DNA from: Bradyrhizobium sp. WBAH42
GTDB taxonomy: Bacteria; Pseudomonadota; Alphaproteobacteria; Rhizobiales; Xanthobacteraceae
Length of the DNA stretch: 64,000 nt
NCBI RefSeq assembly: GCF_024585265.1
Contig: NZ_CP036533.1
Span: 6,023,001-6,087,000, forward strand
Reading direction: 5' to 3'
This document shows, piece by piece, positions 2,166 through 4,974 of this stretch. Every line of letters begins with the position of its first letter. Within the stretch, counting starts at the first letter, position 1. Below the pieces are notes generated by a model. It ran no database searches. It was not told the origin of the DNA and worked only from the letters and a program-made list of their open reading frames with translations. Made by a program: the position numbers and the translations under genes.

Positions 2166-2239
2166 TGGAGCGGGTGAAGGGAATCGAACCCTCGTATTCA
2201 GCTTGGAAGGCTGCTGCTCTACCATTGAGCTACACCCGC
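2166..2239 (-). tRNA. tRNA-Gly (anticodon TCC)
   Basis: Read on the minus strand the sequence starts GCGGGTG, has the D-arm TAGCTCAATGGTAGAGCA, an anticodon loop with TCC, the T-arm GGTTCGATTCC, and closes with CACCCGC, discriminator T and an encoded CCA. The acceptor stem pairs fully over seven bases. At 74 nt including CCA it is a normal length. Confidence 0.97.
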
Positions 2240-2354: not shown

Positions 2355-2383
2355 TTAACAGCGGCGGGATCGCCGCCTATATT
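2355..2383 (+). promoter_or_regulatory. Sigma-70-type promoter of the rreB mRNA
   Basis: TTAACA at 2355-2360 and TATATT at 2378-2383 each match consensus at five of six positions and are separated by exactly 17 bases. A start about seven bases downstream (near 2390) and the terminator ending at 2555 predict a transcript of about 165 nt, the length I recall for rreB mRNA. Confidence 0.75.
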
Positions 2384-2402
2384 GGAGACTTCCGCAACCA
2401 AC

Positions 2403-2419
2403 GAAAGGAGGTGATCCAG
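2403..2419 (+). promoter_or_regulatory. 17-nt extended Shine-Dalgarno sequence
   Basis: The 17 bases GAAAGGAGGTGATCCAG are the exact reverse complement of the usual alphaproteobacterial 16S rRNA 3' end (CTGGATCACCTCCTTTC). Normal ribosome binding sites use 4-8 of these bases. The last G is also the first base of the GTG start codon, so the site runs into the gene without a gap, which should hold the 30S subunit very tightly and hinder initiation. Confidence 0.9.
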
Positions 2420-2463
2420 TGTCTTATCTCGAGCGCTGTCACCTCGCTGGGATCGCCCGCTAG
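2419..2463 (+). CDS. rreB: 14-residue peptide of the small mRNA rreB
   Basis: A GTG codon overlapping the extended Shine-Dalgarno sequence opens a 14-codon frame (MSYLERCHLAGIAR) ending in TAG. The peptide is too short for a domain. Length, GTG start, 17-nt Shine-Dalgarno, own promoter and terminator, and transcript size all match the published Bradyrhizobiaceae gene rreB, whose small mRNA binds 30S subunits and is poorly translated (from memory). Codons 7-9 contain TCACCTC, complementary to the core of the Shine-Dalgarno sequence, so the message may also mask its own start. It lies between divergent tRNA-Gly and the convergent kinase gene. Confidence 0.9.
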   Translation: MSYLERCHLAGIAR

Positions 2464-2523
2464 GCTTCGATTTGGGCTTGGCATCGGGGCGCTCTCAGCC
2501 CTGGACCAGCGAGCAAGAAATCG

Positions 2524-2555
2524 GGCGCGACGGGGCCTCCCCGCCGCGCCTTTTT
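2524..2555 (+). terminator. Intrinsic terminator of rreB
   Basis: GGCGCGACGGGG pairs with CCCCGCCGCGCC around a CCT loop with one A-C mismatch, followed by TTTTT at 2551-2555. It separates rreB from the convergent kinase gene that ends at 2572. Confidence 0.85.
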
Positions 2556-2571: not shown

Positions 2572-4974
2572 TCAGGCGGGCGGCTCGCCGGCAAGCACCT
2601 CGCGAATCTTCTGCGACAGCTCCGCCTTCCGGTATGGCTTGAACAGCAGCGCCACGCCGGGATCGAGATGTCCTTCGTGGACGATGGTGTTGTCGGTGTA
2701 GCCGGAGGTGTAGAGCACCCTCACGCCCGGCCGGCGGAGCCTGACGGCTTCGGCCAATTCATGCCCGTTCATGCCGCCGGGCATGATGATGTCCGTGAAC
2801 AGGAGATCGAATCTGGCGCCCTGGTCGACCAGCGCCAGCGCGGACGCGCCGTCGCTCGCGGCAAGCGTGCGATAGCCGAGGCCGCCGAGTTGCGCGATGA
2901 CATAGCCCTGGACCAGCGGATCGTCCTCCACCACGAGTATCGTCTCCTGCCCGCGCGGCGTGGCGGGCGCCTGAACCGGGGCCGTCCTGGCCACCGCCTC
3001 GCCCTTTGCCCGCGGCAGGAACAACCGCATCACGGTGCCGCGCCCCTCCTCGCTTTCGATCGCGACGGCGCCGCCGCTCTGGCGGGCAAAGCCGTAGACC
3101 ATGCTCAGTCCCAGCCCGGTGCCGCGGCCGACCCCCTTGGTGGTGAAGAACGGCTCGAACACGCGCTCGCGAATGTCGGCCGGAATGCCGTGACCGGTGT
3201 CGCCGACCGCAACCATCACGAAGGCGCCGCGCACGCCCTCGCCGGCGGTCTCCGTGCCGTCGAGCTCGCGGTTCGCGGTCTCGAGGGTGAGCTTGCCGCC
3301 GCCCGGCATCGCGTCGCGCGCATTGACGGCGAGGTTGACGATCGCGGAGGACAGTTGCGACGGATCCACCATCGCGGACCAGGCCTCGTCGGCGAGCCGC
3401 GTCTCGATCTCGATTTGCTCGCCGAGCATCGGCTTCAGCAGCTTCGCGGTCTCGGCCACGAGGGCGTTGACGTCGATCTCGCGCGGCTCCAGCGGCTGGC
3501 GGCGTGCGAAGGTCAGGAGCTGCGAGGTGATCTCCGCCCCGCGCGCGGCTGCATCGTCGATCAATTGCGCGATCGCGGCGAGATCGGGCTTGTCCGCAAG
3601 CCCCTCCTGGATGATCTCGATCGTGCCGGTGATGACCGTGAGCACGTTGTTGAAATCGTGCGCCACGCCGCCGGTGAGCTGGCCGATCGCGTCCATTTTC
3701 TGGGATTGACGCAGCCGCTCCTCGATCTCGTGCTGCGCGGTAAGGTCGGTCGCGGAGCCGCGGTAGCCCAGGAAGCGTCCATCGGCGTCGAAAACCGGCT
3801 TGCCGTTGACGCTGAAATGATGCATCCGCCCGCGCGTGTCGCGTCCGCGATATTCGAATTTGCGGAACGGCTCGTGACGGTCCAGCGTCGCCAGATGCGC
3901 GCGCCATTTCTCGGGCTCGGTATCGCGATCGAGCGCCGTATCGGTGCGACGCGTGCCGAGCCGCACTTTGGGATCCATGCCGAAGGCAATCACCCGGTCA
4001 GAGAGGTAGGTGAAGCGGTGGTCCGGCCCGGTCTCCCAGAACCAGTCGGACGCGGTCTCGGCGTAGTCGCGGAAACGCTCTTCGCTCGCCCGCGCCTCCG
4101 CTTCGGCGCGCCGGCGGATGGTGAGGTCGCGCTCGAGATTGGCATTGGCCTCGCGCAGCTCGCCATAGGCCTGCTGGAGGTTCGCGCACATCGCATTGAA
4201 GGCCTCGATCACCTTGTCGAGCTCGTCGGCATCGGAGGGCGCCCGGCGCACCAGCCGTAACGGCGGCGGCGGTCGCGCCAGGTTGTACTTGCCGACGAAC
4301 TCGGCGATGGCCACCAGATGCCGCGTCACCAGCAGATGGACCATGTAGATGATGAACAGCGAGACCAGGAACGTCTTCGCGGCCTGGCTCGCCAGAATGA
4401 CCAGGGCCCGGTTCAGCAATTGCTGATAGACCTCGCTCAGCGTGGCCTCGACGTGAAGCACGCCGATCGGGCGAGCGGTCCCCTGCACGATGGTGTTCAA
4501 GGGATAGTCGCGCGTGACGATCGAACGCGTGCCCGGTTCGCCGACCGCGATGCGGATCGGATTGGGACGATCGGCAATCTCGCGCACCTCGGCGGCACGG
4601 AGATCGGGCAGCCGCAGGATACCTTCGAGCTGGAGCTTGAGTTGGTTCTGGTCGAGATTCCACAGGCTGTCGCCGAGACTGCCGGTCGTGCTGCGGCCGA
4701 TCTCGTCGAGCCGCGTCTCGATGAGACCGACTTCTCGATTGTAGTCGAGATAGAGCTGCAGCGCGGTCAGCGTCAGCGTCACGGCCGAAGAGAACAGCAG
4801 CACGGCCGCGAGCAGCCGCGGCCCGACGCCGCTGCGCGACCAGTTGATGAAGCGTGCCGGCAGCGATGAGAGCGTCGACGGCGCAAGCGCGCCGATGTCG
4901 GTCAGACCCGGCTTCGCCGCCATCGGCGAGATGGCGTGGCTGCGCTTGGCGTCCTCGTCACCTGCGTTGGCCAT
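2572..4974 (-). CDS. Hybrid sensor histidine kinase with PAS and receiver domains
   Basis: This 800-residue inner-membrane sensor reads in order: transmembrane helix near 52-74, periplasmic sensor region 75-193, second helix near 194-217, HAMP-like linker to about 272, PAS domain 296-412, dimerisation domain with the phospho-accepting His in VAHDFNN (H439), ATPase domain 535-655 with its N-box near 548-554, GDTGHGIP and GTGLGLS, and a C-terminal receiver 677-795 with acidic pair E683-D684-D685 and phospho-acceptor D728 (FTDIIMP). The layout is that of hybrid kinases whose receiver acts as phosphate sink or relay. The start has GGGGA upstream. No separate DNA-binding regulator lies beside it; the divergent neighbour is a periplasmic binding protein. 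Confidence 0.92.
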   Translation of the reverse strand: MANAGDEDAKRSHAISPMAAKPGLTDIGALAPSTLSSLPARFINWSRSGVGPRLLAAVLLFSSAVTLTLTALQLYLDYNREVGLIETRLDEIGRSTTGSLGDSLWNLDQNQLKLQLEGILRLPDLRAAEVREIADRPNPIRIAVGEPGTRSIVTRDYPLNTIVQGTARPIGVLHVEATLSEVYQQLLNRALVILASQAAKTFLVSLFIIYMVHLLVTRHLVAIAEFVGKYNLARPPPPLRLVRRAPSDADELDKVIEAFNAMCANLQQAYGELREANANLERDLTIRRRAEAEARASEERFRDYAETASDWFWETGPDHRFTYLSDRVIAFGMDPKVRLGTRRTDTALDRDTEPEKWRAHLATLDRHEPFRKFEYRGRDTRGRMHHFSVNGKPVFDADGRFLGYRGSATDLTAQHEIEERLRQSQKMDAIGQLTGGVAHDFNNVLTVITGTIEIIQEGLADKPDLAAIAQLIDDAAARGAEITSQLLTFARRQPLEPREIDVNALVAETAKLLKPMLGEQIEIETRLADEAWSAMVDPSQLSSAIVNLAVNARDAMPGGGKLTLETANRELDGTETAGEGVRGAFVMVAVGDTGHGIPADIRERVFEPFFTTKGVGRGTGLGLSMVYGFARQSGGAVAIESEEGRGTVMRLFLPRAKGEAVARTAPVQAPATPRGQETILVVEDDPLVQGYVIAQLGGLGYRTLAASDGASALALVDQGARFDLLFTDIIMPGGMNGHELAEAVRLRRPGVRVLYTSGYTDNTIVHEGHLDPGVALLFKPYRKAELSQKIREVLAGEPPA

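Follow-up and report, generated by a model that had tools for sequence, protein, structure and literature searches.

The closest described system is the rreB gene of the Bradyrhizobiaceae, which we take to be a small mRNA with a 17-nt Shine-Dalgarno (SD) sequence, a GTG start, 14 codons and a length of ~165 nt, a description that matches the unit at 2355-2555 analyzed here. The long SD and the GTG of rreB are each said to have lowered translation, a start-to-stop mutant is reportedly more stable, and the synthetic rreB peptide is said to be unstructured. Both rreB and the rreR gene of the Rhodobacter/Roseobacter lineage were reportedly described by Hahn et al. 2017 (RNA Biol 14:1353), where the rreB RNA is said to co-sediment with 30S subunits and to be weakly translated. 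In the available parts of PMC5082802, PMC4842269, PMC7143759 and PMC10117765 no description of rreB was found. In the accessible text of PMC9037510, the string "rreR" denotes a protein motif and not the RNA, and the anti-SD motifs of a Bartonella sRNA, as given in the accessible portion of PMC7717549, are a different thing.

A second point of comparison is CC2171, which is filed by Rfam as a Caulobacter sRNA. According to the excerpts available, a Mesorhizobium sRNA candidate has been tabulated as CC2171 (PMC5596092), CC2171 is among the families with a revised structure (PMC11701678), and two previously predicted Caulobacter ncRNAs are translated (PMC4117421). Searches by name or accession in partially accessible literature met no functional account of CC2171 among the matches listed.

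The unit at 2355-2555 and its surroundings

We analyzed a window of 64,000 nucleotides from Bradyrhizobium sp. WBAH42. A sequence-only reading of this DNA had proposed a promoter, a 17-nt complement of the 16S rRNA 3′ end, an overlapping GTG, 14 codons and a hairpin followed by a T-run, and we found every one of these sequence parameters in place, the hairpin being imperfect (Table 1). The first base of the GTG is also the last base of the 17-nt complement (2419). The promoter is the sole match in 2250-2620, with a mean of 0.0 in shuffled sequence, and at rreB-type loci a −10-like hexamer occurs in 42/42 and a −35-like hexamer in 37/42, as scored with loose patterns that were drawn up after viewing the sequences and applied without a control. 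The terminator stem (2524-2550) carries one A-C mismatch on the + strand, and a simple scan reports it on the − strand only. This hairpin and its T-run sit between convergent genes and score as a − strand terminator, and they may serve both.

Table 1. Features of the small unit and its two neighbors, in window coordinates
Feature	Positions	Strand	Details and basis
Sigma-70-type promoter, TTAACA-17-TATATT	2355..2383	+	−35 at 2355-2360, −10 at 2378-2383; 10/12 matches
Putative transcript, ~165 nt	2391..2555	+	Start placed ~8 nt past the −10 box and end placed at the T-run, as deduced from where promoter and terminator lie
17-nt extended SD, GAAAGGAGGTGATCCAG	2403..2419	+	Exact complement of the alphaproteobacterial 16S tail; predicted duplex −32.2 kcal/mol
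GTG-initiated 14-codon ORF, peptide MSYLERCHLAGIAR	2419..2463	+	GTG 2419-2421, stop TAG 2461-2463
Predicted hairpin over SD core and start codon	2408..2445	+	−18.6 kcal/mol, modeled
ORF:3′UTR helix, 5′ arm, codons 9-11, CTCGCTGG	2443..2450	+	Complement search in 42 loci
ORF:3′UTR helix, 3′ arm, CCAGCGAG	2506..2513	+	Complement search, RNAalifold
Terminator-like hairpin (2524-2550) and run of five T (2551-2555)	2524..2555	+	Sequence inspection
tRNA-Gly(TCC), divergent neighbor, outside the unit	2169..2239	−	Rfam
Hybrid histidine kinase (CHASE5, HisKA, HATPase, response regulator), convergent neighbor, outside the unit	2572..4974	−	

The 17-mer has no second match with three or fewer mismatches in the window, where 0.08 would be expected by chance, and in the 8.29-Mb genome the pattern GGAGGTGATCCANTG occurs at two places, this site and 919174; the copy at 919174 precedes a CTG and the bases before it do not lengthen the complement. 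The sequence of the 16S tail, GCTGGATCACCTCCTTTC, was found in 21 of 26 same-genus genomes, with the window's own genome scored as a miss and placement inside 16S assumed, and its last 17 bases are the exact complement of the SD. Across the family, the GGAGGTGATCCANTG pattern was present in 122/248 genomes compared to 1/248 for a reversed control. When the family places were read, own genome included, 87/92 had a frame of 8-30 codons and 5/92 did not. For Alphaproteobacteria at large the pattern occurred in 29/289 genomes versus 0/289 for the control, numbers that count pattern matches and not frames.

Scanning genome contigs for AAGGAGGTGATCCANTG gave at least 116 loci, with frames of 9-30 codons in 107 and over 30 codons in 9 of the 116 matches listed, and the peptides of these loci group by lineage. 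The alphaproteobacterial groups, drawn by peptide, are an rreB type (42 loci), an 18-codon type (32 loci, mainly Rhodobacterales records and referred to below as the Rhodobacterales type) and a 20-28-codon MSHC/MSDR type (84 loci). Loci were assigned to the rreB type by the exact SD pattern and the peptide K/E-R-C-H-L or near variants at codons 5-9. Bradyrhizobium records carrying the unit are L044, L052, L059, L060, L080 and L093.

The unit is stand-alone, since its neighbors are a divergent tRNA gene and a convergent kinase gene. We also considered a cis-acting leader of a downstream gene, which is ruled out in the window because the next gene is convergent and no same-strand gene follows in the unit. 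A tRNA-Gly neighbor is found at 26 of the 42 rreB-type loci, 25 of them within 300 nt, while no Rhodobacterales-type locus (0/32) has a tRNA within 2.5 kb and other tRNAs are near 2/84 MSHC/MSDR loci; these counts are lower bounds because many loci are just 701 nt long. At L095, a MAG, ~2.46 kb lies between a tRNA-Gly and the unit, whose promoter region differs, and an insertion may separate the two. With respect to mobility, the segment 2385-2556 was unmatched among 72,556 plasmid records. Rfam models scored over their curated cut-offs gave nothing but tRNAs within the window.

The sequence-only reading had also named the unit as rreB, and the two match in the lengths of SD, ORF and predicted transcript, in the start codon and in the host group. 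We found no difference between the two in these features. The GTG overlaps the SD ahead of a 14-codon ORF, a length kept in 38/42 relatives; a promoter and a terminator of its own, the latter with one stem mismatch, would yield ~165 nt as judged from sequence; and the pattern is present in 17/17 same-genus genomes of the family draw, own genome included. It is very probable that the unit is an ortholog of rreB. In this genome the gene is so short that standard gene callers would probably overlook it.

Constraint on the ORF and its predicted RNA structure

The invariance of the SD and of the amino acids at codons 5-9 is partly built in, because the loci were chosen by those features; synonymous invariance of codons 6-14 is not a product of locus choice. 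Among the 38 fourteen-codon relatives, which represent 26 distinct ORFs, codons 6-14, 342 codons in total, carried 15 amino-acid differences and not a single synonymous one; of the 15, one lies at codon 10, three at codon 11, ten at codon 12 and one at codon 14. Codons 3-5 of the same relatives showed both synonymous and amino-acid variation, and the stop codon was TAG in 13, TGA in 13 and TAA in 12. The remaining 4/42 loci have 13 or 17 codons, and both 17-codon loci differ in codons 7-8 and have CGT at codon 14; no other frames of 13-17 codons were found among the 92 family places. At the level of sequence, the pattern at codons 6-14 is the reverse of what protein-level constraint gives. Taken with the interchangeable stops, it suggests that selection sees the RNA letters and termination more than the peptide, which seems to drift where the RNA allows. 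This apparent RNA-level constraint on the ORF supports, on its RNA side, the earlier suggestion that the behavior of such a message is closer to that of a ribosome-binding RNA than to that of an ordinary gene.

Folding of the putative window transcript was better than 199/200 shuffled sequences (z −2.88). RNAalifold, run on 41 rreB-type sequences without an input structure (alignment A1, from which L154 was dropped as a repeat of L093), paired GAGGUGA of the SD (2408-2414) with UCACCUC of codons 7-9 (2439-2445), the start region CAGUG (2417-2421) with CGCUG of codons 6-7 (2434-2438), and codons 10-11 with the 3′UTR. For the arm CTCGCTGG, 41/42 loci contain an exact complement of 7 nt or more further downstream, and the remaining locus, L196, pairs through G-U. 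At L199 both codon 11 and the 3′ arm have changed so that they still pair, a single two-sided change, which is no more than shuffles give. The SD hairpin had no two-sided change in the rreB alignment, and no measure of covariation for that alignment as a whole beat shuffled controls. Four pairs of the SD hairpin are lost in L122 and L123, which have CGT at codon 14.

The 7-nt internal SD complement at this site is reached by 9-19% of shuffles in two reads and by 4.5% when scored by duplex energy. Locus by locus this complement is mostly not significant, and we therefore offer the SD hairpin as a prediction. Predicted energies place the hairpin (−18.6 kcal/mol) between the contact of the GGAGG core with the 16S tail (−8.7 kcal/mol) and the 17-bp contact (−32.2 kcal/mol), and on these modeled values a hairpin that resists a short SD could be opened by a long one. 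When codons 2-10 were kept open in the model, the median predicted accessibility of the SD rose only from 0.12 to 0.22.

A proposed mechanism and competing explanations

On balance we favor the reading that the unit is rreB and that it acts as a ribosome-responsive mRNA, standing alone, whose signal is the very act of translation. A small mRNA of ~165 nt would be transcribed by sigma-70 RNA polymerase from its own promoter, end at its own terminator and control no downstream gene in cis. Codons 6-9 would fold over the SD and start codon. A 5-nt SD contact would lose to this hairpin and a 17-bp contact could win, so that the long SD would let a 30S subunit with a full 16S tail open the structured start region. 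Initiation and passage of a ribosome over 14 codons would then unfold the ORF:3′UTR structure, and this unfolding would determine whether the RNA persists, is broken down or becomes able to act. Translation would be the regulated event, a readout of how many initiation-competent 30S subunits with a complete 16S tail are available, and the peptide would be largely a by-product. What the comparison shows directly is the sequence, its conservation, the constraint on RNA letters, the kept termination and, in other phyla, covarying helices; we infer the hairpin that hides the SD, the switch, the role as a sensor and any target. As in leader-peptide attenuators (trpL, for example), translation of a short ORF would reshape the RNA; unlike them, the rreB unit contains no downstream gene.

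If the RNA were a titrator that traps 30S subunits in a hard-to-leave initiation complex, thereby lowering or storing initiation capacity, the predicted 17-bp duplex of −32.2 kcal/mol that takes in the first base of the start codon would fit, as would the reported 30S co-sedimentation and weak translation. We nonetheless regard a titrator as unlikely, as it needs an RNA copy number near that of the 30S subunits and leaves the constraint on codons 6-14, the 3′UTR arm and the kept stop unexplained. The same constraint speaks against a functional micropeptide whose dose is tuned by the long SD: no synonymous and 15 amino-acid differences at codons 6-14 in 38 sequences are hard to reconcile with a 14-residue product, peptides differ between lineages, and the synthetic peptide is reportedly unstructured. 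Frame length is kept in 38/42 loci, and in the MSHC/MSDR loci the peptide endings recur with some synonymous change (scored by eye); even so, we consider a micropeptide decidedly improbable.

The RNA could instead be a base-pairing sRNA with a seed in its variable or 3′ part, the ORF merely switching the availability of that seed. It is stand-alone, terminated and structured, and Rfam files the similar family CC2171 under sRNAs, but the part past the stop is the least conserved and no shared seed is visible, and we hold this to be quite unlikely. Chance or artifact, for example a fragment derived from 16S, has a negligible probability. The SD is part of the 16S reverse complement, and an all-genome scan with a 16-base pattern must find chance copies, as the 9/116 listed matches with frames over 30 codons illustrate. 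The likeness to 16S, however, ends after CCAG, dozens of genomes retain the ORF and the 3′UTR arm, and the reversed control matched 1/248 genomes; conservation already contradicts such an origin at this locus.

Relatives in Alphaproteobacteria and beyond

Of the described relatives, rreR resembles the window unit in its extended SD, its GTG and a terminator-like structure (28/31 Rhodobacterales-type loci), and differs from it in an 18-codon ORF, in its peptide and in having no tRNA within 2.5 kb. The SD complements of Rhodobacterales-type (rreR) loci lie mostly past the stop, whereas that of rreB lies within the ORF. Assignment of the unit to rreR was rejected, as the window ORF has 14 codons and belongs to another lineage. 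At Rhodobacterales-type loci (L004, L016 and L034 among them), four same-strand frames before the unit and one after it recur in ~19-30 loci.

The CC2171 model (RF01867) starts CAACAAUCGAAAGGAGGUGAUCCAGUGUCU, with the same extended SD at its 5′ end, and, like the window unit, ends in a terminator-like hairpin. On the window it scored 41 bits versus a cut-off of 75 (E 1.4e-7 in 271 bases, over the full model length), and six outer pairs of its outer helix, UCAUUGUC:GACAAUG, were marked as non-pairs. Membership was rejected on the score and because the outer helix is not formed. CC2171 matched 19/19 same-genus genomes, own included, at E ≤0.01, none over the cut-off, and 0/31 relatives exceeded it. 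Given the sub-threshold score and these relatives, we do not place rreB in CC2171; the shared SD seems to account for much of the score, which therefore does not decide on common descent of the two. Four of four MSHC-type loci tested (L022, L051, L064 and L085, with ORFs of 21-25 codons) exceeded the CC2171 cut-off, the other loci in the same test scored 35-49 bits, and the Rhodobacterales locus L061 had no CC2171 match at E 0.01. In 14 control genomes, Caulobacter vibrioides and Deinobacterium chartae matched CC2171, one of the two over the cut-off.

We then compared layout across groups. Pairing of the ORF 3′ end with the 3′UTR reached p ≤0.05 in 32/42 rreB, 16/32 Rhodobacterales-type, 16/33 Phycisphaerales and 7/14 Myxococcota loci, compared to 0, 1, 1 and 1, respectively, for an upstream control segment, the 3′UTR length in this test differing by group and being set by hand. 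MSHC/MSDR (CC2171-type) loci showed little excess, with 14/84 versus 9/84 for the control. Within 190 nt past the stop, a terminator-like structure was present in 40/42 rreB, 28/31 Rhodobacterales-type, 32/34 Phycisphaerales (a count that includes the repeats L232 and L234) and 68/83 MSHC/MSDR loci, and in 10/167 background stretches; among the Myxococcota loci, only 2/14 had one.

In the order of the L028 genome (Phycisphaerales), the pattern occurred in 28/101 genomes, one copy each, with 0/101 for the reversed control. Once L214 with its 269-codon frame is discounted the count is 27/101, with frames of 10-19 codons and all three stop codons in use. Eight Phycisphaerales loci had no Rfam match over cut-off at the site, and two of them gave weak CC2171 matches of 30.3 and 25.2 bits. 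We aligned 26 Phycisphaerales sequences (alignment A2), leaving out 11/37: L021, L031 and L227-L230 as divergent, L013 and L231 as short, L214 for its 269-codon frame, and L232 and L234 as repeats of L028 and L023. In a structure composed of an ORF-end:3′UTR helix and a CGACGG hairpin and predicted on the same alignment, 8/12 pairs had two-sided changes while pairing; shuffled controls gave 3.7, and slid versions no more than 5. A hairpin in which the ORF hides the SD was not predicted for this alignment. In the class of the L074 genome (Myxococcales), 14/57 genomes had one copy with a frame of 14-20 codons, the control giving 0/57; across 11 Myxococcota sequences (L242, L253 and L254 left out as divergent), 15/36 predicted pairs had two-sided changes, a number obtained without a shuffle control.

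Based on these comparisons, we raise with some reservation, at a little under an even chance, the idea that a single class of stand-alone RNAs, serving as ribosome-state sensors, spans several phyla and has rreB, rreR and CC2171 as its local forms, that at least CC2171 is an mRNA, and that the Phycisphaerales and Myxococcota loci belong to the class as well, by descent or convergence. Its features would be near-complete complementarity to the 16S tail, a micro-ORF of ~9-28 codons that starts with GTG, ATG or TTG, a lineage-specific peptide and ORF:3′UTR pairing that is broken by translation, and what such sensors may read is the free 16S tail. Should RNAs of this kind prove to recur across unrelated phyla, each with a peptide unrelated to the others, they may represent a recurrent way for bacteria to sense initiation-competent ribosomes, and the wider pattern offers a reading of CC2171, an Rfam sRNA. 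In the titles and abstract beginnings of the open-licence literature, neither such RNAs outside Alphaproteobacteria nor a link between rreB and CC2171 was found, which is weak evidence of novelty.

Other phyla contributed scattered records. In the class of the L010 genome (Gammaproteobacteria), 1/114 genomes matched, which is the seed itself, inside a 119-codon frame. The 116 matches listed include Gammaproteobacteria/SAR92 records (L010, L082 and L116) and one of Nitrosomonadales (L084). The 23-codon frame of the gammaproteobacterial record L116 begins MSSEI and looks alphaproteobacterial, which could reflect wrong binning or transfer. The order of the Krumholzibacteriia record L045 gave 1/4 genomes, again the seed itself, and four genomes are too few to tell. 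L030, L043 and L045 (Krumholzibacteriia and Acidobacteria) have in common a GC-rich segment prone to pairing ahead of the SD, as well as GGAGGTGGCG close to the end of the ORF, and from their sequences they look like another lineage of the same kind of RNA. In the Gemmatimonadetes, L009 and L063 each have an extended SD, a TTG start and a frame of 20-21 codons, with the stretch WASDR in both.
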